This document shows positions 6,123-51,265 of a DNA stretch of 64,000 nt, piece after piece. The stretch's first letter is position 1. Each line of letters opens with the position of its first letter. The position numbers and the translations under genes are program-made. The stretch comes from Styela clava (Eukaryota; Chordata; Ascidiacea; Stolidobranchia; Styelidae). Location of the stretch: the NCBI RefSeq assembly GCF_964204865.1, contig NC_135262.1:6820001-6884000 (forward strand), read 5' to 3'. The notes under the pieces are model-generated. The model searched no databases and had not been told where the DNA came from. It worked only from the letters and a program-made list of their open reading frames with translations.

Positions 6123-6131
6123 CCACAAATC
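6123..6131. other. 9-bp target-site duplication, left copy
   Basis: CCACAAATC lies immediately outside the left terminus (ACCTAGGTAAAG) of the foldback element. It is repeated perfectly at 19976-19984, immediately outside the right terminus. Confidence 0.9.
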
Positions 6132-6392
6132 ACCTAGGTAAAGCTAGCGGCCACTTCCAGCGGACAGTTACCAATTTTTCCAAATTTGAACCCGCCATGT
6201 TCCACGACAGTTGTCGCGAATTCACTTAATTGCGGCTACATGGATGCAAAAAATTAGGCGATTCTCCCTTTTAGAAACTGACGACAGACCTGAAACATAA
6301 TAAAAAACAAAAATGATTGAAACAACACATTTTTTCCTCGATAAAATGAATTATTGCTCAGAAACTCATTTATCGACAAAATCTAAAATTTA
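6132..6392 (+). repeat. Left terminal inverted repeat, unique part
   Basis: This stretch is a near-perfect reverse complement of 19715-19975. The few visible differences include CGACAGTTGTCG on the left against CGACAATTGTCG on the right. It ends in ATAAATGAG-type sequence just before the first satellite unit. Confidence 0.9.
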
Positions 6393-9300
6393 ACTGAGTT
6401 GCAACGTAATATATGCAAGAAATAATTTTTTCTCATCCAATTCATTAATGCAATGTGTTTGGTGGACAAATATCAAAATTTAAAAAAAATCCACCGTGCG
6501 GAAAGTAGGGAAATTCCTCTCAATTCAATGAAAATATTTAAGAAATCGTCTATCCAACTCAGTTAAAGCATAATTTATGCAAGAAAGAATATTTTCTCAT
6601 CCAATTCAATAATACAATGTATTTGGTGGACAGATATAAAATACATATTAAAATTTGAAAAAAAAAACACCGTGCGGAAAGTAGGGAAATTCCCCCCAAT
6701 TTGATGAAAATATTTGAGAAATCGTCTATTTAACTCAGTTAAAGCGTAATTTATCCAAGAAAGAATATTTTCTCATCCAATTCATCCATACGGTGTATTT
6801 GGTGGACAAATATAAAATACATATTAAAATTTGAAAAAAATCCACCGTGCGGAAAGTAGGAAAATTCCCCTCAATTGAAGAAAAAAATATAAAAAATTGT
6901 CAATTTGACTCAGTTAAAGCGTAATTTAGGTGAGAAGGAATTTTTTCTCATCCAATTCATTAATGCAGTGTGTTTGGTGGACAAATATAAAATAGATATC
7001 AAAATTTAAAAAAAATCCACCGTGCGGAAAGTAGGGAAATTCCCCTCAATTTAATGAAAATATTTAGGAAATCGTCTATCCAACTCAGTTAAAGCATAAT
7101 TTATGCAAGAAAGAATATTTTCTCATGCAATTCATTGATACAATGTATTTGGTGGACAGATATAAAATACATATTAAAATTTGAAAAAATCCACCGTGCG
7201 GAAAGTAGGGAAATTCCCCCCAATTTAATGGAAATATTTAGGAAATGGTCTATCCAACTCAGTTAAAAAATGATTTATGCAAGAAAGAATATTTTCTCAT
7301 CCAATTCATTAATACAGTGTATTTGGTGGACGAATATAAAATTGAAAAAAATCCACCGTGCGGAAAGTAGGGAAATTCCCCCCAATTTGATGAAAATATT
7401 TGAGAAATCGTCTATCCAACTCAGTTAAAAAATAATTTATTCAAGAAAGAATATTTTCTCATCCAATTCATTAATACAGTGTATTTGGTGGACAAATATA
7501 AAATACATATTGAAATTTTAAAAAAATCCACCCTGCGGAAAGTAGGGAAATTCCCCCCAATTTGATGAAAATATTTGAGAAATCGTCTAATTAACTCAGT
7601 TAAAGCGTAATTTATCCAAGAAAGAATATTTTCTCATCCAATTCATTAATACGCTGTATTTGGTGGACAAATATAAAATAAATATTAAAATTTAAAAAAA
7701 ATCCACCTTGCGGAAAGTAGGGAATTCCCCCTCAATTAAAAAATATATATAAGAAATCGTCAATTTGACTCAGTTAAAGCGTAATTTAGGTAAGAAGGAA
7801 TTTTTTCTCATCCAATTCATTAATGCAGTGTGTTTGGTGGACAAATATAAAATACATATTAAAAGTTAAAAAAAATCCACCATGCGGAAAGTAGGGAAAT
7901 TCGGTACTCTCGAAATATGGACACAAAGATGACGCACAACCTGAATATAAACGGTGTACCAGGATAGGTTCAGATTTAGAATCTAGATTGTACGCTTTTG
8001 GGAGCGCAGGGAATAATCCATTTATGCAAAAAATAATTTTTTCTCATCCAATTTATTAATACAGTGTATTTGATGGATATATATAAAAAATATATTAAAA
8101 TTTAAAAAAAATCCACCGTGCGGAAAGTAGGGAAATTCCCCTCAATTGAAGAAAAAAATATAAGAAATCGTCGATTTGACTCAGTTAAAGCGTAATTTAG
8201 GTAAGAAGGAGTTTTTTCTCATCCAATTCATTAATGCAGTGTTATTGTTGGACAAATATAAAATACATATTAAAATTTTAAAAAATCCACCGTGCGGAAA
8301 GTAGGGAAATTCCCCCCAATTGAAGAAAAAAATATAAGAAATCGTCTATCCAACTCAAAGCATAATTTATGCAAGAAAGAATATTTTTTCATCCAATTCA
8401 TTGATAGAATGTATTTGGTGGACAGATATAAAATACATATTAAAATTTGAAAAAAAATCCACCGTGCGGAAAGTAGGGAAATTCCCCCCAATTTAATGGA
8501 AATATTTAGGAAATCGTCTATCCAACTCAGTTAAAAAATGATTTATGCAAGAAAGAATATTTTCTCATCTAATTCATTAATACAGTGTATTTGGTGGACG
8601 AATATAAAATACTTAATTTGAAAAAAATCCACCGTGCGGAAAGTAGGGAAATTCCCCCCAATTTGATGAAAATATTTGAGAAATCGTCTATTCAACTCAG
8701 TAAAAAAATAATTTATGCAAGAAAGAATATTTTCTCATCCAATTCATTAATACGGTGTATTTGGTGGACAAATATAAAATACATATTGAAATTTTAAAAA
8801 AATCCACCGTGCGGAAAGTAGGGAAATTTCCCTCAATTTAATGAAAATATTTAAGGAATCGTCTATCCAACTCAGTTAAAAAATAATTTATGCAAGAAAG
8901 GAAATTTTCTCATCCAATTCATTAATACAATGTATTTGGTGGACAAATATAAAATACATATTAAAATTTGAAAAAAATCCACCCTGCGGAAAGTAGGGAA
9001 ATTCCCCCCAATTGAAGAAAAAAATATAAGAAATCGTCAATTTAACTCAATTAAAGCGTAATTTAGGTAAGAAGGAATTTTTTCTCATCCAATTCATTAA
9101 TGCAGTGTGTTTGGTGGACAAATATAAAATACATATTAAAATTAAAAAAAAATCCACCATGCAGAAAGTAGGGAAATTCCCCTCAATTGAAGAAAAAAAT
9201 ATAAGAAATTGTCAATTTGACTCAGTTAAAGCGTAATTTAGGTAAGAAGGAATTTTTTCTCATTCAATTCATTAATGCAGTGTGTTTGGTGGACGAATAT

Positions 9301-9755
9301 AAAATACATATTAAAATTTAAAAAAATCCACCATGCGGAAAGTAGGGAAATTCCCCCCAATTTGATGAAAATATTTGAGAAATAGTCTATTTAACTCAGA
9401 GCGTAATTTATCCAAGAAAGAATATTTTCTCATCCAATTCATTAATACGGTGTATTTGGTGGAAAAATATGAAATACATATTGAAATTAAAAAAAAATCC
9501 ACCGTGCGGAAAGTAGGGAAATTCCCCTCAATTTAAAGAAAATATTTAAGAAATCGTCTATCCAACTCAGTTAAAAAATAATTTATGCAAGAAAGAATAT
9601 TTTCTCATCCAGTTCATTAATACAGTGTATTTGATGGTGATATATAAAACGAATATTAAATTTTAAAAATATTCCACTGTGCGGAAAGTTGGGAAATTCC
9701 CCTAACTTATGTTAAAATCAACGGAATCGTAAATTTATATAAATTAAAGCGAAAT
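6393..9755 (+). repeat. Left satellite array, about 19 units of about 175 bp
   Basis: The core CCACCGTGCGGAAAGTAGG recurs at about 6491, 6668, 6843, 7019, 7191, 7348, 7528, 7703, 7877, 8113, 8288, 8459, 8628, 8802, 8980, 9153, 9328, 9499 and 9673. Units vary from about 157 to 180 bp. Each also carries blocks such as AACTCAGTTAAAGCGTAAT, TCTCATCCAATTCATTAAT and TGTTTGGTGGACAAATATAA. Subtypes alternate, for example AGAAGGAATTTTTT against AGAAAGAATATTTT. One spacer interrupts the array at about 7902-8020. Open frames inside the array are by-products of the repeat. Confidence 0.95.
7902..8020 (+). repeat. Higher-order spacer inside left array
   Basis: This block runs from GGTACTCTCGAAATATGG to GGGAGCGCAGGGAATAA and is not part of the 175-bp unit. 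It is found inverted at about 13514, 14451, 16085 and 17720 in the right arm. Confidence 0.85.
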
Positions 9756-11470
9756 CTTGTCATATTTATTGATCATTCCCATTCGCCTCCATAACTAAAT
9801 ATTATTTTTGAAGTTTTATCATGTTCTTATTTCATTTTATTGGTTTACACTACAACCTCGTAACACCCCCTCTCACTCCATATAGCACTACCTTCCGTAA
9901 AACCTCAGTAGTAACTTATGCTGGTATCTTTGGGTCACCTTCGGTGAACGTGCAGCCTTAACCCAGTATATCAGCAGCCTAAATCAGAATAGTATTGTCA
10001 ACCTTAACAGATGAGGTGGCGTCATCAAGATTAGTAACGATTCGACACTTATGGCGCTTCATTTGTTATGTCGAATATGTATGTCGCCGAACCGTTTAAT
10101 GCTGTTGTTAAAAAATATCTCAGAATTTGAAAGACTGTGAAACTGTATTAAAGAGCTAAAGGAAGTATGGCACACCGTACTAAGACGTTGGAAGAAACGA
10201 CGATACGATCGATAGCAGCCGCTATGATCACTGTAAACGTATGAAGAAACTTTCAATTCCCAAATGAAGTTTTCACATGAATCAATCAACAAATCGTTTT
10301 TTATTCGCCAATCACAAAAAAATGGAAGCAAAAAATATCACGAAAAACTTGTATACAGTAGAAACTCTACGTACGAAAGGCTCTGGATACGAAAAATCCA
10401 TTAATTCTTTTCCGAAAACTTGCATAGTGATATTTGTTCATTTTAGATTAATTTGATGCAGGGATGTTCAATACAAACCTAATATTTGAATATTGCGACC
10501 TTCGAATATCGTTTTTTGGTGTTTTTGAGAATACCGAATATGACGCACATTTCCTAGCGCCGTCAAACTTTCGATTTAAAAAAAAATATTCACAGCCATT
10601 CTATTTTTTATCGCAATTGAAATCAGCCGTGCGCGTCGTGGCACTAAATTATGGCCAGCATGAAAGAAATTCAAAAAGCGCAATTACAATTATTACACAA
10701 TATTCACAATTAATAACGTCTATTCCAATAAATCTGAAAGCAAATTGTGTCGCAATTAATTGTTTTCACCCTCAATTTCGATAGTGACCGAACATACCGG
10801 GAATTTTTTTCATTTCTTGCAATTAAGAGTTTATAAAATGACCTTTAAATGTTATTTAATATCTAACGCGGATTTTATCATTATCCCGACGTCGTTGATG
10901 ACAATATCGTTCACTTTAAGTTGGCGATATCAATAAGCAAAATTAAAATAATAACACCAGACATGAAAGATTAGCGCCGACTCAAATCAAGTGAAAACCG
11001 ACTTAAAAAATAAAACAAGTTTTCTGGTCTTAATTCTCCATCAGTGGCGGACGGTAATTTGGGAATCAATCATTTGATTATGACGATGGTAAACAAAGGT
11101 ACATAAGCATACCGTTCTTAGTTTTTATTCGTTATTACTATGTTCTTCCTTCTTTCCGTATGTTCTTTGTTTATTTATTATGCTGTAATCTAATTCTAAC
11201 ATGTAGTTGTTGGATTTTAAGCATTAATATAATTTATACGAAAATGATGTCCGAGTTTTACGTGGACTTAAAACGGATTAGGGCATTTACAGGTAAAACG
11301 CCTTATGTAATACGACGGGTCTTCGGAACGAATTAATTTCGTGGGTAGCGCTTCTACTGTATATTCATGGCTCTGTACTCAATGGACAGGTTAACGGGAA
11401 ATGGCCATTTGATCTACTTGTTAGTGTCAAGTGGCAACCCTTTGAAACTTATTTTTACATCAAATGCGTT
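9756..11470. other. Inner region of foldback element without recognised gene
   Basis: This is unique DNA between the left array and the 3' end of the Ulp1-PHD gene. Open frames at 10059-10331 (minus) and 10464-10784 (plus) match no domain I know. The phrase GGGATGTTCAATAC near 10460 resembles a hAT terminus, but no partner end was found. Confidence 0.4.
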
Positions 11471-13511
11471 TTAATGCCAACCGGCCTCGTATGCTGGACA
11501 TTTCCAAAGTACGTCCAATATCTCCGCAATATCTCCGTTGTAGCATCCAGCATGAAACCAGCGTGGACACACATCACAGCCAATCTTTAAAAAAAGTCAA
11601 AATAACATGAATATAAAATTATATATTGCATGTTTATTGAACACCTATTAGGTTACTTACCCATTCTCCTTCTCCCGTCTCCCCACAAAAACTGCAGTAC
11701 GTCTCCACGCAGTCTGTCAAAAATGTATTTTTTAACTGCGTAATGTTTAGATAATTATCTAAATATCAAATATTCATTTCGTCATACCGGAATTCTGAAT
11801 CACCCAACTGGCAATTTTCGCCCTTTCATCGATTGGTGAAACAACATGGATGCTTTTAGTTTCCAGCATCATCCAAGCGAACTGCAATCGAATATATGCC
11901 AAAGAACCAATAGACAAAATAAGTTGTTTCAAAATAACGCAAAATAGTGTGAAGAAAATCATGAGAATGTTGTTTGGTATATGAAAATGAATTAATCAAT
12001 TCTTATGGAATATTTTCTTGTGAATAAATTGACAAAGAACATATACTGATGTATGGATAATTAAATTTGTATGACTTCCTATATACCTTTATCACGTAAA
12101 TTCCACAACTGGATCCATCCCTCTGAATGGGATGTTCAGTAACCGTTGGTGTCCAGTTTTCGCATTCTTTTCGTAAATTCATCCAGTTTCTGTGTGTTGT
12201 AACGTGTGTAAATTCAGTTTTACTAATATACTTTTCATGTAACTTCATTTTTAAAAATCAATACTTTTCATTCAATTTCAATGTCTTTCACAATTGTCAA
12301 TGTCATTCCAATTGTAAATACAGTTTGTTACTGGTACAATGTGATTATGTAGTTCATATATTATTTGTAAGAACAGGACACGTTTTTACGAAAACAGCCG
12401 AATACTTTCAACAAGAGAAATAGAATATTAAAAATAAAGGACTGGATAACTGTAAAGAAGATAATTTTAAAAAATCCACTCCAGGATTTGAAAGCGATCT
12501 GGCAACAGTGAAGTAAAGGTTTATTGAGTTTCTACTTTAGCTTGTAGTTGAAATGGCTAACGATAAGGTGTATTTCAGGAATTGAACTCACTTATAATTT
12601 TTACATGCGTGAGTGGTCTCTTCAATTGAACTTCCATACGAATTCAGAAAGTAGTAATTATTTCTCGTTGTGTCAATGAATTGCAAAGATATTTTGTTCG
12701 AATCAAAATGAAGAATCAAATACAAAAAAGCAATATGTAATTTTGCCACAACAATTTTTTATTTATTGAATATTATTAAAATTTCAAAACAAAACTTCAT
12801 CCTCACCAAAAGAACCCAGTGATTTCCATTTATCCTGCACGCAGAAACAATCACACTATAGTTTCCTAAATTTAACTGTAAAACAAATGAGATGATATAA
12901 GTATGATATTAAAGTGTTGTAGGAAAGATGAATATGGATTTTTTAGATAAAAAAACAATGTCGATTTTTCCAACCCTAATTTTGTTTATACCAATGGTTT
13001 TCGATCATAGTTCCGCAAGTATATTCCAGCAGTTTTATATTCAAATCCGAGGTGTTCGGCGTCAAATTGTTTTTTTCATATTTTTGTAACAAAAGTAATC
13101 ATGAAATCAACTTATACATATCAATTACACCGGGGTTCTCGAGCCTCGGATATATTTATTGGTTGTTTCCTATCCGCCTGAAAAATTAAAAACATCAAAG
13201 ATTGAAAGATTGACTTACATCAGTCATTAGATGGTGATGCATGCTGGTATGTTGGTGAAAAATACAACCAGCAATATAACTATCCATAACGTAAACATCA
13301 CGGCGATTCTTTGTCATCGGTTGAAAGGAGTAAATAATAGTCTGAAAGTATGTGCCGATCAAAAAATTTGAGAACAGTTACAAACGAATTATAAAAATTA
13401 TTTAATTGCTTGAGATTGAATAAATTATACTTTTATATCCCATTTGGAATCATGTAGAGGTAGAATTGTTATTGAGTTGTCTGTCGGGAACAGTAGCAGT
13501 GAGACGTTCAT
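11471..13511 (-). pseudogene. Decayed Ulp1/SENP-like (C48) protease plus PHD-finger gene carried by the foldback element
   Basis: Exons read on the minus strand: 13511-13431 (27 codons from ATG), 13341-13219 (includes DVYVMDSYIAG), 13177-13131, an uncertain exon near 13085-12992, 12875-12807 (INGNHWVLL, the catalytic His), about 12680-12590 (YFLNSYGSS, where Asp is expected), 12189-12087 (HPIQRDGSSCGIYV, with oxyanion Gln and catalytic Cys), 11881-11788, 11713-11661 and 11584-11471. The last two form a PHD finger (YCSFC, GCDVCPRWFHAGC, WKCPAY). Phases agree from 12680 to the stop. Damage includes a lost AG acceptor before the exon at 12680 (GCAA), no AG acceptor near 13085, active-site Asp to Asn, and the last zinc Cys to Tyr. 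Ulp1 proteases cleave SUMO-like modifiers and PHD fingers read histone tails. This copy is probably non-functional. Whether it is the element's own gene or a captured host gene is open. Confidence 0.75.
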
Positions 13512-13513
13512 TT

Positions 13514-13626
13514 ATTCCCTGCGCTCCCAAAAGCGTACAATCTAGATTCTAAATCTGAACCTATCCAGGTACACCTTTTATATTCAGGTTGTGCGTCATC
13601 TTTGTGTCCATATTTCGAGAATACCG
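13514..13626 (-). repeat. Higher-order spacer at inner edge of right array
   Basis: This is an inverted copy of the 7902-8020 spacer. Its GCGCAGGGAATAA end stops right at the first ATG of the Ulp1-PHD gene, so the spacer occupies the place where that gene's promoter or 5' leader would be. Confidence 0.8.
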
Positions 13627-16600
13627 AATTTCCCTACTTTCCGCATGGTGGATTTTTTTTAACTTTTAATATGTATTTTATATTTGTCCACCAAACACAC
13701 TGCATTAATGAATTGGATGAGAAAAAAATTCCTTCTTAACTAAATTACGCTTTAACTGAGTCAAATTGACGATTTCTTATATATATTTTTTAATTGAGGG
13801 GGAATTCCCTACTTTCCGCACGGTGGATTTTTTTTAAATTTTAATATGTATTTTATATTTGTCCACCAAATACACTGTATTAATGAATTGGATGAGAACA
13901 TATTCTTTCTTGCATAAATCATTTTTTAACTGAGTTGGATAGACGATTTCTTAAATATTTTCATTAAATTGAGGGGAATTTCCCTACTTTCCGCACGGTG
14001 GATTTTTTTTAAATTTTGATATCTACTTTATATTTGTCCACCAAACACACTGCATTAATGAATTGGATGAGAAAAAATTCCTTCTCACCTAAATTACGCT
14101 TTAACTGAGTCAAATTGACAATTTCTTATATTTTTTTCTTTAATTGAGGGGTATTTCCCTACTTTCCGCAAGGTGGATTTTTTTTAAATTTTAATATGTA
14201 TTTTATATTTGTCCACCAAATACAACGTATTAATGAATTGGATGAGAAAATATTCTTTCTTGGATAAATTACGCTTTAACTGAGTTAAATAGTCGATTTC
14301 TCAAATATTTTCATCAAATTGGGGGGAATTTCCCTACTTTCCGCACGGTGGATTTTTTTGGAATTTTATTATGTATTTTATATTCGTCCACCAAATACAC
14401 TGTATTAATAAATTGGATGAGAAAAAATTATTTTTTGCATAAATGGGTTATTCCCTGCGCTCCCAAAAGCGTACAATCTAGATTCTAAATCTGAACCTAT
14501 CCTGGTACACCTTTTATATTCAGGATGTGCGTCATCTTTGTGTCCATATTTCGAGAGTACCGAATTTCCCTACTTTCCGCATGATGGATTTTTTTTAACT
14601 TTTAATATGTATTTTATATTTGTCCACCAAACACACTGCATTAATGAATTGGATGAGAAAAAATTCCTTCTTACCTAAATTACGCTTTAACTGAGTCAAA
14701 TTGACGATTTCTTATATATATTTTTTAATTGAGGGGGAATTCCCTACTTTCCGCACAGTGGATTTTTTTTAAATTTTAATATTTATTTTATATTAGTCCA
14801 CCAAACACACTGCATTAATGAATTGGATGAGAAAAAATTCCTTCTTACCTAAATTACGCTTTAATTGAGTTAAATTGACTATTTCTTATATATTTTTCTT
14901 CAATTGGGTGGAATTTCCCTACTTTCCGCATGGTGGATTTTTTTTAAATTTTAATATGTATTTTATATTTGTCCACCAAAAACACTGCATTAATGAATTG
15001 GATGAGAAAAAACTCCTTCTTACCTAAATTACGCTTTAACTGGGTCAAATTGACGATTTCTTATATTTTTTTCTTCAATTGAGGGGAATTTTCCTACTTT
15101 CCGCACGGTGGATTTTTTTTTAATTTTAATATGTATTTTATATTTGTCCACCAAATACACTGTATTAATCAATTGGATGAGAAAATATTCTTTCTTGCAT
15201 AAATCATTTTTTAACTGAGTTGGATAGACGATATCTTAAATATTTTCATTAAATTGAGGGGAATTTCCCTACTTTCCGCACGGTGGATTTTTTTTAAATT
15301 TTAATATGTATTTTATATCTGTCCACCAAACACACTGCATTAATGAATTGGATGAGAAAAAATTCCTTCTTACCTAAATTACGCTTTAACTGAGTCAAAT
15401 TGACGATTTCTTATATTTTTTTCTTCAATTGAGGGGAATTTCCCTACTTTCCGCACGGTGGATTTTTTTTAATTTTATTATGTATTTTATATTTGTCCAC
15501 CAAATACACTGTATTAATGAATTGGATGAGAACATATTCTTTCTTGCATAAATCATTTTTTAACTGAGTTGGATAGACGATTTCTTAAATATTTTCATTA
15601 AATTGAGGGGAATTTCCCTACTTTCCGCACGGTGGATTTTTTTTAAATTTTGATATCTACTTTATATTTGTCCACCAAACACACTGCATTAATGAATTGG
15701 ATGAGAAAAAATTCCTTCTCACCTAAATTACGCTTTAACTGAGTCAAATTGACAATTTCTTATATTTTTTTCTTTAATTGAGGGGTATTTCCCTACTTTC
15801 CGCAAGGTGGATTTTTTTTTAAATTTTAATATGTATTTTATATTTGTCCACCAAATACAACGTATTAATGAATTGGATGAGAAAATATTCTTTCTTGGAT
15901 AAATTACGCTTTAACTGAGTTAAATAGTCGATTTCTCAAATATTTTCATCAAATTGGGGGGAATTTCCCTACTTTCCGCACGGTGGATTTTTTTGGAATT
16001 TTAATATGTATTTTATATTCGTCCACCAAATACACTGTATTAATAAATTGGATGAGAAAAAATTATTTTTTGCATAAATGGGTTATTCCCTGCGCTCCCA
16101 AAAGCGTACAATCTAGATTCTAAATCTGAACCTATCCTGGTACACCTTTTATATTCAGGATGTGCGTCATCTTTGTGTCCATATTTCGAGAGTACCGAAT
16201 TTCCCTACTTTCCGCATGATGGATTTTTTTTAACTTTTAATATGTATTTTATATTTGTCCACCAAACACACTGCATTAATGAATTGGATGAGAAAAAATT
16301 CCTTCTTACCTAAATTACGCTTTAACTGAGTCAAATTGACGATTTCTTATATATATTTTTTAATTGAGGGGGAATTCCCTACTTTCCGCACAGTGGATTT
16401 TTTTTAAATTTTAATATTTATTTTATATTAGTCCACCAAACACACTGCATTAATGAATTGGATGAGAAAAAATTCCTTCTTACCTAAATTACGCTTTAAT
16501 TGAGTTAAATTGACTATTTCTTATATATTTTTCTTCAATTGGGGGGAATTTCCCTACTTTCCGCATGGTGGATTTTTTTTAAATTTTAATATGTATTTTA

Positions 16601-19600
16601 TATTTGTCCACCAAAAACACTGCATTAATGAATTGGATGAGAAAAAACTCCTTCTTACCTAAATTACGCTTTAACTGGGTCAAATTGACGATTTCTTATA
16701 TTTTTTTCTTCAATTGAGGGGAATTTTCCTACTTTCCGCACGGTGGATTTTTTTTTAATTTTAATATGTATTTTATATTTGTCCACCAAATACACTGTAT
16801 TAATCAATTGGATGAGAAAATATTCTTTCTTGCATAAATCATTTTTTAACTGAGTTGGATAGACGATATCTTAAATATTTTCATTAAATTGAGGGGAATT
16901 TCCCTACTTTCCGCACGGTGGATTTTTTTTAAATTTTAATATGTATTTTATATTTGTCCACCAAACACACTGCATTAATGAATTGGATGAGAAAATATCC
17001 TTTCTTGAATAAATTACGCTTTAACTGAGTTAAATAGACGATTTCTCAAATATTTTCATCAAATTGGGGGGAATATCCCTACTTTCCGCGCGGTGGATTT
17101 TTTTTAAATTTTAATATGTATTTTATATTTGTCCACCAAATACACTGTATTAATGAATTGGTGCAGAAAATATTCTTTCTTGCATAAATTATTTTTTAAC
17201 TGAGTTGGATAGACGATTTCTTAAATATTTCCATTAAATTGAGGGGAATTTCCCTACTTTCCGCACGGAGGATTTTTTTTAAATTTTGATATCTATTTTA
17301 TATTTGTCCACCAAACACACTGCATTAATGAATTGGATGAGAAAAAATTCCTTCTTATCCAAATTACGCTTTAACTGAGTCAAATTGACAATTTCTTATA
17401 ATTTTTTCTTCAATTGAGGGGAATTTCCCTACTTTCCGCACGGTGGATTTTTTTTTAATTTTAATATGTATTTTATATTTGTCCACCAAATACAACGTAT
17501 TAATGAATTGGATGAGAAAATATTCTTTCTTGGATAAATTACGCTTTAACTGAGTTAAATAGTCGATTTCTCAAATATTTTCATCAAATTGGGGGGAATT
17601 TCCCTATTTCCGCACGGTGGATTTTTTTGAAATTTTAAGATGTATTTTATATTCGTCCACCAAATACACTGTATTAATAAATTGGATGAGAAAAAATTAT
17701 TTTTTGCATAAATGGGTTATTCCCTGCGCTCCCAAAAGCGTACAATCTAGATTCTAAATCTGAACCTATCCTGGTACACCTTTTATATGCAGGTTGTGCG
17801 TCATCTTTGTGTCCATATTTCGAGAGTACCGAATTTCCCTACTTTCCGCATGGTGGATTTTTTTTAACTTTTAATATGTATTTTATATTTGTCCACCAAA
17901 CACACTGCATTAATGAATTGGATGAGAAAAAATTCCTTCTTACCTAAATTACGCTTTAACTGAGTCAAATTGACGATTTCTTATATATATTTTTTAATTG
18001 AGGGGGAATTCCCTACTTTCCGCAAGGTGGATTTTTTTTAAATTTTAATATTTATTTTATATTTGTCCACCAAACACACTGCATTAATGAATTGTATGAG
18101 AAAAAATTCCTTCTTACCTAAATTACGCTTTAATTGAGTTAAATTGACGATTTCTTATATTTTTTTCTTCAGTTGGGGGGAATTTCCCTACTTTCCGCAC
18201 GGTGGATTTTTTTTAAATTATAATATGTATTTTATATTTGTCCACCAAAAACACTGCATTAATGAATTGGATGAGAAAAAACTCCTTCTTACCTAAATTA
18301 CGCTTTAACTGAGTCAAATTGACGATTTCTTATATTTTTTTCTTCAATTGAGGGGAATTTTCCTACTTTCCGCACGGTGGATTTTTTTTTAATTTTAATA
18401 TGTATTTTATATTTGTCCACCAAATACACTGTATTAATGAATTGGATGAGAAAATATTCTTTCTTGCATAAATCATTTTTTAACTGAGTTGGATAGACGA
18501 TTTCTTAAATATTTCCATTAAATTGAGGGGAATTTCCCTACTTTCCGCACGGTGGATTTTTTTTAAATTTTAATATCTATTTTATATTTGTCCACCAAAC
18601 ACACTGCATTAATGAATTGGATGAGAAAAAATTCCTTCTTATCTAAATTACGCTTTAACTGAGTCAAATTGACAATTTCTTATATTTTTTTCTTCAATTG
18701 AGGGGAATTTTCCTACTTTCCGCACGGTGGATTTTTTTTAAATTTTAATATGTATTTTATATTTGTCTACCAAATACACTGTATTAATGAATTGGATGAG
18801 AAAATATTTTTTCTTGGATAAATTACGCTTTAACTGAGTTAAATAGACGATTTTTCAAATATTTTCATCAATTGGGGGGAATTTCCCTACTTTCCGCACG
18901 GTGGATTTTTTTAAAATTTTAATATGTATTTTATATTCGTCCACCAAATACACTGTATTAATGAATTGGATGAGAAAATATTCTTTCCTGCCTAAATTAT
19001 TTTTTAACTGAGTTCGATAGACGATTTCTTAAATATTTCCATTAAATTGGGGGGAATTTCCCTACTTTCTGCACGGTGGATTTTTTTTAAATTTTAATAT
19101 GTATTTCATATCTGTCCACCAAATACATTGTATTGATGAATTGGATGAGAAGATATTCTTTCTTGCATAAATTATGCTTTAACTGAGTTGGATAGACGAT
19201 TTCTTAAATATTTCCATTAAATTGGGGGGAATTTCCGTACTTTCCGCACGGTGGATTTTTTTTAAATTTTAATATGTATTTTATATTTGTCCACCAAACA
19301 CATTGCATTAATGAATTGGATGAGAAAAAATTCCTTCTTACCTAAATTACGCTTTAACTGAGTTAAATTGGAGATTTCCTATATTTTTTTCTTAAACCGG
19401 GGGGAATTTTTCTACTTTCCGCACGGTGGATTTTTTTTAAATTTTAATATGTATTTTATATTTGTCTACTTAATACACTGTATTAATGAATTGGATGAGA
19501 AAAGATTATTTCCTGCATAAATTACGCTTTAACTGAGTTATATTGACAATTTCTTAAAAATTTTCCTTTAATTTGGGGGTATTTCCCAACTTTCCGCATA

Positions 19601-19714
19601 GTGGAATTGTTTTAAAATTTAATATATGTTTTATATATCTTCATCAAATTCACTGTATTAATGAATTGGATGAGTAAAAATTATTTCTTGCATAAATTAC
19701 GCTTCAACTCAGTT
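13622..19714 (-). repeat. Right satellite array, about 34 units of about 175 bp with 1,634-bp higher-order repeat
   Basis: The inverted core CCGCACGGTGG recurs about every 175 bp from 13641 to 19594. Spacer copies beginning TTCCCTGCGCTCC lie at 13514, 14451, 16085 and 17720. The last three are 1,634 and 1,635 bp apart, which fits nine units plus one spacer. Blocks at 14449-16080 and 16081-17715 share private variants, such as AGTCCACCAAACACAC following ATTTATTTTATATT, showing recent block duplication. Outermost units near 19380-19690 are more diverged. Confidence 0.95.
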
Positions 19715-19975
19715 AAATTTTAGATTTTGTCGATAAATGAGCTTCTGAGCAATAATTCATTTTATCGAGGAGAAAAATGTGTTGTTTCAATCATTTTTGT
19801 TTTTTATTATGTTTCATGTCTGTCGTCAGTTTCTAAAAGGGAGAATCGCCTAATTTTTTGCATCCATGTAGCCGCAATTAAGTGAATTCGCGACAATTGT
19901 CGTGGAACATGGCGGGTTCAAATTTGGAAAAATTGGTAACTGTCCGCTGGAAGTGGCCGCTAGCTTTACCTAGGT
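19715..19975 (-). repeat. Right terminal inverted repeat, unique part
   Basis: This is the reverse complement of 6132-6392, ending in GCTAGCTTTACCTAGGT. Confidence 0.9.
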
Positions 19976-19984
19976 CCACAAATC
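19976..19984. other. 9-bp target-site duplication, right copy
   Basis: CCACAAATC is identical to the left copy at 6123-6131. Confidence 0.9.
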
Positions 19985-20079: not shown

Positions 20080-20262
20080 TCAATCACAATTAAAAAACAG
20101 ATGAAAACACGTTTCCTCTACATTATCGCATAATGAACATATGCCTGATTCGTCTCTGAACCAATATTTTAGTTTATCTGCGGGAGGCAGTCCATTATGT
20201 ATTCTACTGCAGCAGCGACGCAAGACCACAGAGCTATGGAGCTTTCCCGACCTTTGACCCAC
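20080..20262 (-). pseudogene. LINE reverse-transcriptase C-terminal zinc-knuckle fragment
   Basis: The minus-strand frame contains RIHNGLPPADKLKYWF followed by CSLCDNVEETCFHLFFNCD. This matches the C-terminal zf-RVT segment of non-LTR retrotransposon proteins (C-x2-C ... ET ... H-x4-C, with C-D at the end). Only this short piece is left; no upstream reverse-transcriptase core is readable. It is a dead fragment 100 bp outside the foldback element. Confidence 0.6.
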
Positions 20263-21497
20263 GAAATATTCTTTCTATTCTTTACCATTGCAAAATTGTC
20301 GGGGCTTATTTTTTTGGGTGGTTTCGCGAGTTGGTGACTGTAAAATGGGGTATGTGTTTAAAACCATCATTGTGATTCATCGCATACAACAATCTGTTTT
20401 TTAAAAGTACCGGTTAGGAATTTTAGTCTAGTCTACCACAGCTATTTCTTGGTATTTACCAGGTCGCTATGACGTATCTATGGACCTTTCCCCGAGCATC
20501 GACTTCCTGGTTTATTTCGTGACATTGGCCAATCAGCAAGATGCAAAAAGTGACGTAACAATGCCCCCTTTTCGCATCCGCTCAGACACTTTTCTCACTC
20601 AGACAGATTTTCAAGCGTGGTTGTGAACATTATCTCGTTTACGCGTTTTTGAACTCTATTCGTTAGTTTTCAGTTGTGTTTCGGAAACTTAAATAAAAAT
20701 CAGATAACTCAATGATCACTCTGTCTTCCTGTGAGTTTTAGTTTAAATGCAGTGATGAAAATTAGTGTAGAAATACCTGTGATAGACTAGCCTGAAATTC
20801 GTTACCGGTACTCTTAAAAAACAGATTGTTGTGTGCGATGAATCATAATGATGGTTTGAAACACATACCCCATTTTACAGGCGCCAACTCGCAGAAGCAC
20901 TCCTAAAATAGCCCTGGAAATTTTGCAATGGTAAAGTATAGAAAGAATTTCCCGGGGGTCAAAGGTCGGGGAAAGGTCCATTGCGTTTTCTTATGTATTT
21001 ATTTATTAAGTAATATATTTTACTCGATTTAATTATATTTATCACGTTTTTGTTAGACTTCCCCGAGGGGGCGCCGCACGATAAGCAGAATTGGTTTTCG
21101 GCGTCTCCTTTCACCCTGGAATGCGATTTTTTAGATTTCTTTCAATTTATGTATGTATAGTTCGTACTTTCAGCTTGGTGAAGAAATAAATTACTGATTA
21201 CTATTTCTACACTGATTTCTTATTACTGCAATTAAATTAAAACGCCTAGGAAGACAGAGTGATCACTGAATTATCTGATTTATATTTTAATTTCCGAAAC
21301 ACAACTTAAAACTAACGAATAGAGTTCAAAAACGCGAAGACGAGGTAATGTTTACGACCACACCAGAAAATCTGTCTGAGTGAGAATTGTCTGAGCGGAT
21401 GCTTGAAGGGAGCATTGTTACGTCACTTTTTGCATCTTGCTGATTGGCCAATGTCACGAAGTAAACAGGGAAGTCGATGCTCGGGGAAAGGTTCATT
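20243..21497. mobile_element. MITE family A: one copy inserted into another
   Basis: A full copy spans about 20481-20985, with ends TGGACCTTTCCCCGA and TCGGGGAAAGGTCCA. On both sides lie parts of a second copy. The 20243-20470 part carries CCGACCTTTGACCC and the block CTTTACCATTGCAAAATT. The 21180-21497 part ends CGATGCTCGGGGAAAGGTTC. About 200 bp of other sequence (20990-21180) sits in the outer copy. Related copies are at 35690-36093, 49735-50065 and 50199-51265. There is no coding capacity. Confidence 0.7.
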
Positions 21498-34408: not shown

Positions 34409-36250
34409 CAGTGGTTCCCAAACTTTTTGTACCATCGCTCCCCTACAAAAGTTTATACAACTTCATCGCCCCCCGGCACTGCAAAAAAAGGAAAGTCTGA
34501 AACGAATATATTACAGACCAAATAATGAGACAAATCATAGTTTATAGTGTTTTTCAATGAGATGGATGAGCTTGATGTTCTTCAGCGAGTTTTTTTATTT
34601 TATCTAAAATTACCCCGTTTACTGATGAAAAGGCGATTTAGTTGTTTTGATAGGAATAGCAGCACGGCTAAAAACCCCTCTTTCACCATATCAGAGATCG
34701 GAAATGAAAGAATCCAGAGTTCTACCTCCTCAAAAACCGCCATGTACTCTTGCATTCAACTCCTTAAATTCACCCCATTCCACATTAAAATATTGAAAAC
34801 AAAATTAATTTTCCAAAACTTCTAATAATGACTTTCGTACCCTACAGCCTGATGACCTTCACCAAATTACATGATAGATACCGATCCTCGGTAAAATTCA
34901 TTCCAGATTCCTTATCCTACCACGTCCTCCAGTCCGATCACCAGTCCATAGTATTAATCAGCCATTTGTTTTGAATTCGGATGGCCCAGGGGTCGGCAAA
35001 TTTTACGTCGCTCGCGGGACAAAATTTAGGCTTGCTATTTTTTTTGCGGATTGCATAAATTTTTTCAAAGTTAAAAACGGAACATCGTGAGAAAACTGCG
35101 ACAATTCGTGAACTCAACTCAGTCGTCTTATTAAAAAATTAATGACGATGACATGTCTTGTTGCTGCATCACGCTTGATAGCATCACGACGCCAAGATTG
35201 GAACATTTTCTAAATGGGCATCACTAATCCTAGTTTTTCGCTTGTTCTTTGTAATGTTCATTTTTTAAAATAATTGTTCGCACAATTATGTACTTCCAAA
35301 CATCAAAGTGAATATTTTCGCATGGTTTGTGAAATTTTGATAAAGATTTTATTTAAGAAGATACATTCGTAGAAAAATTAAGCAGTGATGAATCTTTCGA
35401 ATAGAATATGAATTTTATTTCCTTATTGCATTGCAATACATTCAAATATTTACTGCGCTATTGAACCCCTGCACTCAGCATCAACTTTTCTGTGTGTTTC
35501 CATTTGTCTAATTATAATTAAATTGTAGGCTCGTTAAACGAGTAGCTGTTCAATATAAATTATAGGATATACTAAAATTTAGTCTAAACGTGTCTCCGAT
35601 AAATTCTGTTACGTAAAAAAATGCAATTTATTCCTAGAGCGTAGATAATAAATAAAATTAAATCATTGTTAAAACCGCCGTTTGGATGTTTCCCCTGGCA
35701 TAGACTTGTTTACTTTGTGACATTCCTCACTCAGACAGAGCGTGGTCGTTAACATGACCTCATTTTCACGATTTTGAATTATATTCGTTAGTTTTTAGTT
35801 GTTTTTCGGAAATTTAAATAAAATAAGGCAATGGACATCTTGTCCTCCTAGGAGTTTCAGTTTAATCACAGTAATCAAAAATTAGTGTAGAAATAGACTA
35901 GGCTAAAATTCTTTACCGGTACTTTTAAAATACAGATTTTTGAATGGTATGAATTAGAATGATAGTTTGAAACAAATACCGCAATTTATAGGCAACAACT
36001 CGCGAAACCACTCTTAAAATAAGCACCGAAAATTTTAGAATGGTGAAGTATGGGAAGAATTTTCGGGGTCAAAGATCAAGGAAAGGTCCAATCAGTGAAG
36101 CGTCCCGGGCCAGATTACTATACAGATGTCCTGGCCACTGGGATACGCAAACTACCGTACTTTATTGCAAAGACGAGTCCAGCAAGCCTTTCGCCCCCTC
36201 CACTTTTTCGCCCCCTTCTGTAACCTTTTCGCCCACTTTGGGAATCACTG
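34409..36250. mobile_element. hAT-type element, 1.84 kb, with perfect 8-bp duplication
   Basis: It begins CAGTGGTTCCCAAACTTTTT and ends CTTTGGGAATCACTG, with GC-rich CGCCCCC / TTTCGCCCCCTCC subterminal parts. It is flanked by GTCTAACT at 34401-34408 and 36251-36258. Inside are another hAT terminus (CAGGGGTCGGCAAATTT at 34987) and a diverged family A MITE (35690-36093). No transposase is recognisable. Confidence 0.85.
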
Positions 36251-37007: not shown

Positions 37008-40000
37008 TCAAGGACGAGTATAGAGTCCTCCGCTGATCACGAAATTTTCTCCAGTAACATAACTTGAATCATCAGAAGCCAAGTAGGCAGCAAGGCCAGC
37101 ACATTCTTCAGGCTGTGCAAACCTTCCCATCGCAACTGCACTCATAAACTTGTCTCGGGCTTCTTTGTTACTCGCAGGTGCTTGCAAAAACGCTGTGTCA
37201 ACAAGGCCAAGGGTAAGGCAGTTGATACGAATGTTACATTTTAAAAGATCTGGCATAAATGCACGTACCATTGCGTTTATACTCGCTTTTGTTATCGCGT
37301 ACGCCCCGGCATAAGCATGTGTGACGTATGCTCCTACTGTGGAAGATAAAATAATGGAGCCTGGTGCCTTGCTTTTCGCCATGTGCGGGTATATTTCCTG
37401 AATCATTTGAAAATTCGATTTTATATGCACATCATATACTTTATCTAGCACGCTTTCCGGAGTTGACAAAATGTCGAATGGGTGAGGATTGACGCCCGCG
37501 TTTTGAACGAGGATGTTTATCTCTCCCCACTCTTCCAACGTCTTTTCGATCAAGTTTTTCCGATCACTTTTATTTGCAACATGTCCTTGAATTCCCATGA
37601 CCTGTATTACAAAAATTGAAAGTTGCCTATCAGTAACTGCACCCAAATTGCTGAAAAGGTCGGCGGACAAGCGTGTCGCAATGAACTATACTCATACGTC
37701 ATAAAAAATGGTTTTGAAGAATTAGAATGAAACAGCAAAATTTTGGATGCAATGTCGGATTCCATAACGAGCTCGGATAAAATTTGAAATATGAAAGTAA
37801 TACGGTAACATTCTGGGTGGATTTATCTAATTTTTTTCTAAAATGAATTTGGGAACAATTGGTTCAATATTTGCGGAAAAGGCGATTTTTTTATAAACAA
37901 CTACAACAATTTAACAAAACGACACATGTCGTGACAAATAACTAGTCCATTCCAGTTTTAGAGCAATGATCACAAATTTCATATAAACAATCATTTTCAA
38001 AATTGAAAGCAAAAATGCAATGTTCTGCCAAATGAAGAGTACGCTGATACAGGCCTGCAGCTCGTGAAGTAGTTTACATTAAAAATAAAAATATTATGGA
38101 CTTCATGTGAAACAAGTTTCCACAGATACACAGAGCAGAAACGTGGCGTTATTTCTTGAATTATTTACTATTTATCTTCTATTTTCCAGAGTTGAGAGGA
38201 ACGTCAGATCGTAATTTAAAATTCCCAAAATCGTTTGGTCGAGATCGAAAACCTACTTCAGAGTAGAAATTTTGGCTAACTCTGGGCGGGAATCGGATCT
38301 TAAATCGAAGTCTAAAAGATGAAATTCTACAGTCTTGATAACAAGTTGTATTTCTAAAATATGCTGGATTTTATGACTTAAATGGTAGTAATGAACCCCA
38401 TTGTCACAAGATTAGTATACAGGGTGATTGAAAAGTAACTCCCTATTTTAAAATAAATACAATTTATTCAAATGCTATATCATGTTTCATGTTTCTAAAT
38501 TTATGTGTATATATTACTTAATATATGGCAATTTAATTTATGTTCTTGTTTTCCTTTCAGATTTGTTTAAATATTGTTCAATTTCAATCTTTTCAAATTT
38601 ATTTTATTTCAAAACCCTACAAAAATGGCTGGACGTCTTACTCTACAGGAACGTGCCCAGATAGCCGCGCATTATGAAGTTTGGGGATGCATTGTTCAAG
38701 TGCAAAGATGGTGGAGAACTATTAAGGGAAAACATGCCCAAATTGACCCGAAGACGATCAAGAATTGTCATAAAAAACTTATGACCACAGGATCTGTGGC
38801 TGATACTCAAAGAAGCGGTCGTCCTTCCAAATCCAGAGATCCTAAGGTAGTGCAAGTTGTTAAAGAAATGTTTACCCGTAGCCCACATAAGTCAATTCGT
38901 CAAGCAACAAGAGAAAGTGGGCTCTCCTTTCATTGTGTACGTAATGTGCTAAAAAACGAGCTTAAATGGCGTGCTTGGAAGCCGCATTACTGTCAAGCAC
39001 TCTCTGCAGAAGACTTTGACATTCGTATGGAGTTTGGTGAAATAATGTTGGCTTGGTTTAGAGATTGGCCCAACCTTTTTAAAAATATTCTATGGAGTGA
39101 TGAAGCTGTATTCCACATAGGTGGATTTGTGAACCGTCATAACTGCCACTACTGGGCGGAAGAAGATCCTCGTGTTACCTGTGAAAAAATGCAAAATCGA
39201 TCCAAAGTAACGGTATGGTGTGGAATTACTTTTGATAGGATTGTGGGTCCCTTCATTCTTCGCGATACCATGAATGCCGAAAGGTACCTCGCTATGTTGA
39301 AAGATGAAATTTGGCCAATTATCAGTGCTTGGGAAAATATTGAAGATTTGATTTTCATGCAAGATGGAGCTCCTCCACACTTTGCTATTGTTGTTCGTGA
39401 ATGGCTAAATGCTCAATTTCCTGGAAGATGGATGGGTCGTCGCGGTTCGCACGAATGGCCTGCCAGAAGTCCTGACTTAACACCCTGCGACTTTTTTCTC
39501 TGGGGTTGGCTGAAAGAGGAAGTCTACTCAACCAAACCAAGAAATTTGGAAGAACTTGAGGGGCGAATACGTGAAGTTATGACTTCCATCCCGCAAGAGT
39601 TTCTTGCGAAATCAGTTGATGCGATTCCTGGTCGACTTGAGAAGCTGGTGGCAAATAAAGGCGCCCATATTGAATTTTAAATAAAAGCCCATGCATTATA
39701 CTTCCTTCTCATATTCATTAATTGTAGAAATTATATTTTAAAAATAAACTATAGTTTTTTTAAAATAGGGAGTTACTTTTCAATAAGCCCATGCATTATA
39801 CTTCCTTCTCATATTCATTAATTGTAGAAATTATATTTTAAAAATAAACTATAGTTTTTTTAAAATAGGGAGTTACGTTTCAATCACCCTGATATGAATT
39901 TTTGAAATCTCAATCAACTCTAACCTACCTCTAGACCGAGATCCTTCATTTCTTTTTCAGCCCTATCCACGTTTTTCTGCTTTCGACTGCTGACAACAAC

Positions 40001-40165
40001 GCGGGCACCATTTATAGCGAGCCTTTTTGCAATTGCGAGACCTATTCCGTCCGTCCCTGCTGTTACTACTGCAACTCTTCCAACTAGGCTGCCGGGACTA
40101 TCTCGAGAAAAATTTCGACGTGCACATACTTCCACACTTCGTAAAAAATTTGTCCGGCAAAACAT
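37008..40165 (-). CDS. DHRS4-like short-chain dehydrogenase/reductase, two exons
   Basis: Exon 1 is 40165-39929 (79 codons) and exon 2 is 37601-37008 (197 codons plus TGA). The intron is 37602-39928 with a GTAGGT donor and a TACAG acceptor, in phase 0. The joined protein is 276 aa, against 278 for human DHRS4. Visible features are a cofactor loop (TAGTDGIG) and SSRKQKNVDRAEK, typical of NADP-preferring DHRS4; NAGVNP; catalytic Ser in ILSST; YAITK (Tyr-x3-Lys); and NCLTLGLVDT. DHRS4 enzymes reduce retinal and other carbonyls with NADPH. The N-terminus is Arg-rich without acids (MFCRTNFLRSVEVCARRNFS), suggesting a mitochondrial presequence. The C-terminus is TRP, not the SRL-type peroxisome signal of vertebrate DHRS4. 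An intact mariner-like transposon fills much of the intron. Confidence 0.9.
38625..39680 (+). CDS. Mariner-like transposase, intact, 351 aa
   Basis: This enzyme cuts and pastes its transposon through the terminal repeats. The N-terminus (LTLQERAQIAAHYE, TGSVADTQRSGRPS) is the helix-turn-helix region of the DUF4817 type. The catalytic core shows WSDEAVFHIGG (first Asp), FMQDGAPPH (second Asp) and ARSPDLTPCDFFLWG. Counting from QD to the Asp in PCD gives 41 intervening residues, which fits the DD41D (rosa-like) group, while SPD would give 36. The start is taken at 38625 because the family motif begins there; the frame is open upstream to 38574. AATAAA overlaps the stop codon. No stop or frameshift is present, so activity is possible. 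The assignment to the rosa group is inference. Confidence 0.9.
   Translation: MAGRLTLQERAQIAAHYEVWGCIVQVQRWWRTIKGKHAQIDPKTIKNCHKKLMTTGSVADTQRSGRPSKSRDPKVVQVVKEMFTRSPHKSIRQATRESGLSFHCVRNVLKNELKWRAWKPHYCQALSAEDFDIRMEFGEIMLAWFRDWPNLFKNILWSDEAVFHIGGFVNRHNCHYWAEEDPRVTCEKMQNRSKVTVWCGITFDRIVGPFILRDTMNAERYLAMLKDEIWPIISAWENIEDLIFMQDGAPPHFAIVVREWLNAQFPGRWMGRRGSHEWPARSPDLTPCDFFLWGWLKEEVYSTKPRNLEELEGRIREVMTSIPQEFLAKSVDAIPGRLEKLVANKGAHIEF
39685..39884 (+). repeat. Exact-period 100-bp tandem duplication of the mariner 3' end
   Basis: The block beginning AAGCCCATGCATTATAC at 39685 starts again at 39785 with nearly no change, and both copies end in GGGAGTTAC. Only the outer copy is followed by the terminal CACCCTG. 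Confidence 0.9.
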
Positions 40166-50065: not shown

Positions 50066-50198
50066 GCATTATGGAACCGGAGATGAAAAAAAACAATGAT
50101 ATTTTTTCGACAATTCATGGTTTATATATATAAATGAAGTTTGAAGATTGTTGTATACGGATAAAAATTGTTTATCTCTCTCTTTCCTATCGATTATG

Positions 50199-51265
50199 GA
50201 TGTTTACCGATCGTTGAACCCCGGAATATTCTTTCTATACTTCACCATTGCAAAAATTTTGGAGCTTATTTTGAGAGTGGTTTTGCGACTTGGCGCCTAT
50301 TGTAGCGTACCGGCAGTCTATGTAATAATTATTCAAGTTCAGAATATCTTTCAATATGATCTGACATCAAGTTTCCTGTCAATATTCACTTCAATTTATG
50401 CTATTTTGTTCTATTTATTAATTATCAATCCAAGCAACGATTAATACAACCAAACACTCGAATGAAACGGAAAGCATACAATAAAGCGACAAGTACCAGG
50501 CAGCACAATGCAAGAAAATAGAATATGCACAATAAAAACATTTTGAACAGTACTGATAATAGCTAATTCCCTGACAACAACCAAAAATACAACACTAAAA
50601 TAACTGCAATGGCACTGTACTGAAACAATAATATCACAAAACCACAAACAAACATCCCTGATAACCCACCGGACACTCATGACCAGAATCCAACCGAAAA
50701 CCAACCACACTGTACCAATCACATCACACCACAGCACGCGCTAACAGGATATCAAAGGACAGATCGACAGTGTCACAGCGCCCTCAGGGTCGTCAATACC
50801 AAAATACCAAATATGGAAACAATATCACATGGCATCATTTAACAGATAAAACAAGGTTCGTCACATTATAAACCGGCGTATATGTTTCAAACTATCCAAC
50901 AACCTGTTATTCAAAAGTACCGATGAAGAAGTTTACCCTAGTCCATCACAGCTATTTCCATACTAATATTTAATAATAATTACTGCATTTAAACTAAAAC
51001 TTTTAAAAGAGACGAAATGCTTACGGATTTATTGGATTCATGCTAATATTTTCGAAACACAACTAAAAACTAACAAATAACACGCGAAATTAAGATAATG
51101 TTTACAACCATACGGTACCTAAAAATCTGTCTAAGTGCCTGTGTTACAAAAGTGTCTGAGTGGATGCTGAAACGTCTTTTTTTACGTCAATTATTGCATC
51201 TTGCTAATTGGTCAATGTTACGGAAGTGAACAAGGAAGACGGTGCTCGGGGAAACATTCATAAAC
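50199..51265 (-). repeat. MITE family A copy interrupted by other DNA
   Basis: The left part at 50199-50320 (CACCATTGCAAAAATTTTGG) and the right part at 50870-51265 (AGTCCATCACAGCTATTTCC, then GGTGCTCGGGGAAA) belong to one element. About 550 bp of unrelated sequence separates them. Confidence 0.6.

Follow-up and report, generated by a model that had tools for sequence, protein, structure and literature searches.

A probable Mutator-like foldback transposon family with satellite-DNA arms in Styela clava

Architecture of the element in the window

The stretch analysed here, called the window throughout, comprises 64,000 nucleotides of the ascidian Styela clava (contig NC_135262.1, assembly GCF_964204865.1), and between positions 6132 and 19975 it holds a 13,844-bp unit made of inverted non-satellite ends, opposed arrays of satellite DNA and a central region. 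An earlier note on this DNA had delimited the unit and given it a perfect 9-bp duplication at its borders; the coordinates proved exact, and the duplication, CCACAAATC, is present on either side. The left end of this copy opens with ACCTAGGTAAAGC and the right end closes with the reverse complement of ACCTAGGTAAAGC; the ends of the family described below read ACCTAGG. The near-identical inverted ends, previously put at about 260 bp, were recovered as non-satellite domains of 249 bp and 254 bp, with terminal inverted repeats that are identical at 246 of 249 aligned positions and have one internal 1-bp gap. Inside them lie the opposed satellite arrays, with 19 plus-strand monomers on the left and 34 minus-strand monomers on the right (the exact number per arm is uncertain) and a monomer length of 174 bp, close to the 175 bp reported before. 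The two arms are unequal, with about 3.6 kb on the left compared to about 6.5 kb on the right. Among random position pairs drawn from the window, a 9-mer match in the same arrangement as the bordering duplication arose by chance in 71 out of 2,000,000.

The terminus and the opposed arms recur across the genome

As the earlier note had proposed, we searched the assembly for the terminus. A 32-bp terminus sequence, with up to 3 mismatches allowed, was found at 53 places (26 forward and 27 reverse), 51 of them outside the window besides the two that belong to the window copy, and the reversed-pattern control gave 0 and 0. Pairing neighbouring forward and reverse termini by hand placed 46 of the 53 in 23 facing pairs, which delimit elements of 4,506 to 18,003 bp, and left 7 single. 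The duplication check covered the 23 pairs, the 7 unpaired termini being left out, and revealed a perfect 9-bp duplication in the flanks of 16 pairs and a perfect 8-bp duplication in 5. All 21 sequences are different, as had been proposed for other copies of the element, and by eye these 8-9 bp duplications have no sequence in common. Different perfect duplications at paired termini are the signature of repeated whole-unit transposition. We read 13 of the 23 pairs whole (window copy included) and the other 10 in parts, mostly their ends. Plus-strand monomers lie on the left and minus-strand monomers on the right in 13/13 wholly read copies, with 7 to 34 monomers per arm, and this layout was found on 9 large contigs. 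Together with the duplications at 21 of the 23 pairs, the opposed arrays bear out the earlier view of the satellite as the arm of a mobile unit.

Whether the arms and the ends have a common history can be read from pairs of sister copies, which sit at sites with different duplications. In the sister copies C6a and C9b both arms are collinear, over 3.3 kb and 2.8 kb at 96-97% identity, and C16b and C9a are collinear over 3.6 kb per side at about 95%. With two sister pairs collinear in both arms, the arms therefore moved together with the ends. The arms also rearrange independently of one another, since at the right end of the window copy collinearity with C8a, the nearest relative of that end, spans 2,965 of 3,000 compared bases (97.8%), while at the left end collinearity with other ends extends, under the settings used, no further than 342 bases. 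Collinearity measured inward from the terminus has a median of about 0.92 kb over all ends, and this value is alike for the same end, the opposite end or both ends of one copy. Identity of the ends is much the same within and between copies, at 0.980 for the two ends of one copy and 0.976 for ends of different copies.

The copies at C2:16173399, C5:16130601, C16:12736392 and C10:22044833 carry a variant terminus, in which GGACACTT or a close form replaces GGCCACTT. These copies are short (4.5-6.1 kb), two of them have a different centre of about 1.5 kb in common, and they perhaps represent a second subfamily. Two same-orientation termini at C1:8590468 and C1:8596906 are 84% like the window terminus, lack a satellite monomer over the stretch of about 260 bases examined inward of them and belong to an older or different subfamily. 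A 20-bp terminus sequence had 0 matches among viral contigs, and Rfam, tRNA and phage searches returned nothing of use.

Satellite monomers and a higher-order unit

The 53 monomers of the window copy have a consensus with 28% G+C, and a spacer of 103-106 bp recurs inside the arms. In the right arm, nine monomers (one cut short) and a spacer of about 106 bp make up a 1,635-bp higher-order unit. Right-arm monomer identity is 0.942 at a lag of nine, as opposed to 0.86-0.89 at the remaining lags from 1 to 11, and no lag-nine peak was detected in the left arm over monomer lags 1 to 11. The adjoining units at 14458-16092 and 16093-17726 have 98.0% identity to one another and 94% each to the outer unit, and monomers carried by the higher-order units within this one arm are up to 100% identical.

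To compare monomers between copies we used 427 full monomers, with partial monomers excluded. Monomers of the same arm have a mean identity of 0.890, and the corresponding means are 0.887 for the two arms of a copy and 0.888 for different copies; all three values are about 0.89, and the copies therefore draw on one common monomer pool. The best match includes the same arm for 114 of the 427 monomers, compared to a mean of 34.3 and a maximum of 51 in 100 shuffles, an excess that fits limited local duplication. Derivation of the monomer from the terminal domain was rejected (score 20, random mean 20.2, reached by 166 of 300 random sequences), as was derivation of the spacer from the terminus, the monomer or the centre (scores 20, 18 and 25, below the maxima of 23, 27 and 31 for 100 random sequences each).

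The satellite outside the elements

A 27-bp satellite anchor, searched with up to 3 mismatches, was found at 910 places in the assembly (control 0 and 0), and the 13 wholly read copies contain 456 of the 910. By our own count, 97 of the 100 anchors listed of these 910, which are exact matches on contigs C1 to C6, lie within paired elements, 1 adjoins a lone terminus and 2 lie in a decayed element that keeps pieces of the terminus and opposed arms. None of the 100 listed anchors of the 910 is freestanding; the listed anchors favour exact matches on the first contigs, and satellite that was never assembled would escape the count. These 100 anchors thus give no case of the satellite seeding outside elements that the earlier note had suggested, and free arrays may lie among the other 810.

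The centre and its candidate Ulp1-PHD gene

The window centre is present, whole or in pieces, in 10 of the 12 other wholly read copies at about 96-99% identity. The middle domain varies between copies: C17b retains only a 655-bp piece of it, and C2b has no window-type centre at the threshold used and carries another centre of about 1.5 kb, which it has in common with the copy at C10:22044833 at 96.6%. The centre is reversed in C18b, C5a, C16a and C17b, as expected in a symmetric element without a fixed strand. The centre of C6a holds, at element positions of about 6638-8663, a separate insertion of 2 kb that has inverted ends of its own.

The longest stop-free stretch wholly inside the window centre is 110 residues. 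A protein search with the piece 12003-12257 gave one match, a Styela clava record of 118 residues whose pieces map to 12182-11474 on the minus strand with one residue different outside the splice junctions. A second Styela clava record fits the same stretch with another start and the identical one-residue difference. These records, LOC120338846 and LOC144420842, may come from another copy, and they thus match a transposon centre rather than an ordinary gene. Pfam identified a PHD finger on the Styela record (E 1e-7) and on a piece of the window (E 3.1e-6). When three further candidate exons upstream were joined with the next two, a Ulp1/C48 match was obtained with E 1.1e-6, over the Pfam cut-off; no C48 match of its own was found in Pfam for the piece 13198-13377, which holds candidate exon A, or for candidate exon B by itself. 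Candidate exon B contains NHW, which we take to be the catalytic-histidine motif, and the QRDGSSCG of exon D is presumably the catalytic-cysteine motif. A PDB sequence search with the joined reading gave only weak matches, the best being SENP1 at E 0.11, and in this weak alignment an asparagine stands opposite the aspartate of the SENP1 DS pair, presumably a catalytic residue.

The Ulp1-PHD gene is degenerate, though present in most centres, and several of its exons are damaged in the copies that carry them. The exon B donor is altered and exon A has gaps in 4/11 copies, with 1 donor unreadable; exon D is gapped in 1/11 and exon E is wholly or largely lost in 2/11. Because these defects accompany the missing AG before exon C in 11/11 copies, the gene was probably broken before the copies spread, or exon C is misplaced. 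NCBIfam gave 0 matches for 3 sequences and a PDB sequence search with the exon D piece gave 0. A match of the joined reading to a YopJ-type acetyltransferase (E 0.064), a match to polyphosphate kinase (E 0.0043) and further weak matches were all under their family cut-offs and were disregarded. Coordinates of the element and its candidate exons are collected in Table 1.

Table 1. Parts of the element at 6132-19975 and its bordering duplication (window positions)
Feature	Position	Strand	Basis
Target-site duplication, left copy (CCACAAATC)	6123..6131	.	sequence match and flank reading
Target-site duplication, right copy (CCACAAATC)	19976..19984	.	sequence match and flank reading
Left terminal flanking domain, non-satellite terminal inverted repeat, 249 bp	6132..6380	+	alignment, identity
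Right terminal flanking domain, 254 bp	19722..19975	-	alignment, identity
Left satellite arm, 19 monomers	6381..9697	+	
Right satellite arm, 34 monomers, repeated 1,635-bp higher-order unit	13628..19721	-	
Spacer within left arm	7901..8004	+	
Spacer at inner edge of right arm	13522..13627	-	
Spacer in right arm	14458..14563	-	
Spacer in right arm, 106/106 identical to the copy at 14458	16093..16198	-	
Spacer in right arm	17727..17832	-	
Centre, 3.76 kb, limits approximate	9740..13502	-	
Candidate exon A, Ulp1-like (C48) gene	13219..13317	-	ATG and GT donor; inferred exon
Candidate exon B, contains NHW	12807..12875	-	Pfam C48 match starts at residue 48 of joined reading
Candidate exon C	12592..12680	-	AG not preceding in 11/11 copies carrying exon C
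Exon D (QRDGSSCG), residues 1-32 of Styela clava protein record	12087..12189	-	
Exon E, same Styela clava record, end approximate	11789..11881	-	
Exon F, PHD finger start, ends approximate	11658..11717	-	
Exon G, remainder of PHD finger	11474..11584	-	

Nature and classification of the family

We interpret the window unit as belonging to a foldback DNA transposon family of Styela clava that is Mutator-like, non-autonomous and mobilised in trans, with a probability of about 0.88. The features of a foldback element are present, namely inverted arms of tandem repeats (13/13 copies), duplications (21/23 pairs) and a variable middle domain. The element plan runs from a terminus of about 250 bp through a 174-bp satellite array, a variable centre and an opposed array to the other terminus. 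A transposase made elsewhere would recognise the ends and insert the entire unit, to judge from the duplication size through a staggered cut of 8-9 bp, and the duplication length and the Ulp1-PHD remnant suggest that this transposase belongs to the Mutator superfamily. Inside the arms, unequal exchange or slipped replication may change the length of the array and could have given rise to the 1,635-bp unit. Transposase binding may be aided, or may once have been aided, by the repeats close to the ends, as suggested for Galileo and Tetris.

Mutator-type duplications are 8-10 bp long, commonly 9 bp, and of the 23 pairs found here, 16 have duplications of 9 bp and 5 have duplications of 8 bp. The available part of PMC2836005 aligns Ulp1 and PHD domains for Ginger1 and Mutator transposases and reports Ulp1 in Mutator elements of hydra and lancelet. 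Several points weigh against our interpretation. We infer the superfamily from duplication length and the Ulp1-PHD remnant, signs that are indirect, and the combination of Ulp1 and PHD is not exclusive to Mutator, as Ginger1 proteins have both according to the same part of PMC2836005. The C48 match depends on the joining of inferred exons; without joining, single window pieces reach E 0.067 at best and the Styela record E 0.0038, under the cut-off. Pfam detected no transposase domain in 41/41 stop-free centre pieces of at least 38 residues. In addition, the duplication copies of the C14 pair differ by one base in length, and the C3 pair, with its altered left end, has no duplication.

The Ulp1-PHD remnant could instead point to a Ginger-type transposon, some Ginger1 proteins ending in Ulp1 and PHD, and the available part of PMC2836005 lists Hydra Ginger1-9 with both domains. 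The same source gives Ginger1 a 4-bp CCGG or CCGT duplication and TGTNR ends, in contrast to the 8-9 bp duplications and ACCTAGG ends found here; both Ginger1 features are absent, and we rejected this highly improbable assignment. Because the duplications are 8-9 bp, Mutator appears to fit and Ginger1 does not. A further alternative, an inverted satellite locus spread by segmental duplication with short bordering duplications arising by chance, would account for arrays that are tandem repeats with higher-order structure. We consider it the least probable of all, as the chance of one such duplication is about 71 in 2,000,000, and we rejected it in view of perfect, different duplications lying exactly at the termini of 21/23 pairs. 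The mirror arms might also be an artefact, since repeated units whose monomers match at up to 100% within an arm are difficult to assemble. Assembly error is less likely because the opposed arms recur in 13/13 copies on 9 large contigs, and with flanks and duplications that differ among the 13 we hold an artefact to be very unlikely.

The remaining alternative concerns the fate of the arrays, which in an active satellite factory would regularly leave the elements and turn into ordinary satellite DNA, a fate proposed for Tetris. Arms of 7 to 34 monomers in 13 copies whose common centres are about 96-99% identical, local amplification in the form of higher-order units with identical monomers, and the excess of same-arm best matches (114/427, where shuffling gives 34.3 on average and 51 at most) are all consistent with such a process. 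We nevertheless regard it as unlikely, given that 97 of the 100 listed anchors (of 910) are inside paired elements and the other 3 beside a terminus or in a decayed copy, and that monomer identity within arms (0.890) is no higher than between copies (0.888). Within our reading of the unit as a Mutator-like foldback element, we tentatively raise the possibility, at rather less than even odds, that the satellite is confined to the family and its remnants. It would then form arrays of several kilobases, with higher-order units of their own, that depend on transposition alone for their spread and change in length at a faster pace than the centre accumulates mutations. If so, element-bound satellite would represent either a forerunner of free satellite DNA or an alternative to it.

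Relation to known systems

The FB elements of Drosophila have long inverted arms of tandem repeats and 9-bp duplications. Their repeat units are short, and their likeness to the present family is one of description, not of sequence. The earlier note knew of no described family with such a unit, a statement that does not hold, as Tetris of Drosophila virilis already has this architecture (PMC4079207). According to the available part of that 2014 paper, Tetris of D. virilis and D. americana has a flanking domain and inverted arms with tandem repeats of about 220 bp, lacks coding capacity in its middle and is bordered by duplications of 8-10 bp; it is proposed as a satellite source, and its authors assign it to the Mutator superfamily as a suggestion. 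The present family thus resembles Tetris as a foldback element without conserved reading frames that has a flanking domain, arm repeats of variable number and a variable middle, a likeness in architecture by description. The differences, as far as the same part of the paper extends, lie in the arms and the satellite. Tetris arms measure at most 1,735 bp, whereas those described here extend over several kb, hold up to 34 monomers and include a 1,635-bp unit that contains a spacer. Tetris forms satellite-like arrays of kb size, with some contigs made of repeats only, and here none is free among the 100 anchors listed of 910. In Tetris a 37-bp stretch is common to the flanking domain and the repeat, whereas here similarity is no higher than random.

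Other elements resemble the family in part. The Mutator/Foldback element Tm1 of root-knot nematodes, in the available part of PMC3169594, has composite inverted termini with redundant repeats and mostly 9-bp duplications; its repeats are about 14 bp compared to 174 bp here, and some members encode a Phantom-like Mutator transposase, none of which was found in the window centre pieces. Galileo of Drosophila has long, internally repetitive inverted termini, as here, and is placed by its transposase in the P-element superfamily, unlike the Mutator-like reading of the present family (available parts of PMC3573991 and PMC3688188). Expansion of short arrays inside transposons is described as a known route to satellites in the portion of a 2025 review available to us (PMC12628747). 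We did not find the family in print in the literature searched, including that on Styela clava, ascidians and tunicates. Overall, on the sources consulted, the architecture and the idea of a satellite source are already known from Tetris, and what the present family appears to add is longer arms and higher-order units. It is a further example of a transposon with satellite-DNA arms, from animals only distantly related to flies. With 23 paired copies, differing duplications and higher-order units, the growth and shrinkage of arrays inside a moving element become measurable, and the family allows one to ask whether arrays ever escape their elements.

Other features of the window

A 369-residue open frame at 38571-39677 on the plus strand contains a DDE_3 endonuclease domain (E 6.7e-7) and is probably a Tc1/mariner-like transposase. 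It lies on the opposite strand between short-chain dehydrogenase exons at 39926-40165 and about 37011-37631. The frame at 37011-37685 corresponds to a short-chain dehydrogenase record of Styela clava, and the first 80 residues of that record are found at 39926-40165 with 100% identity. Near-perfect tandem duplications occur at 39685-39884 (100 bp twice, 99%) and 56097-56325 (117 bp twice, 100%). A dispersed repeat family with inverted internal parts was found at 20235-21496, near the right side of the element, and at 35739-36090 and 50195-51261.

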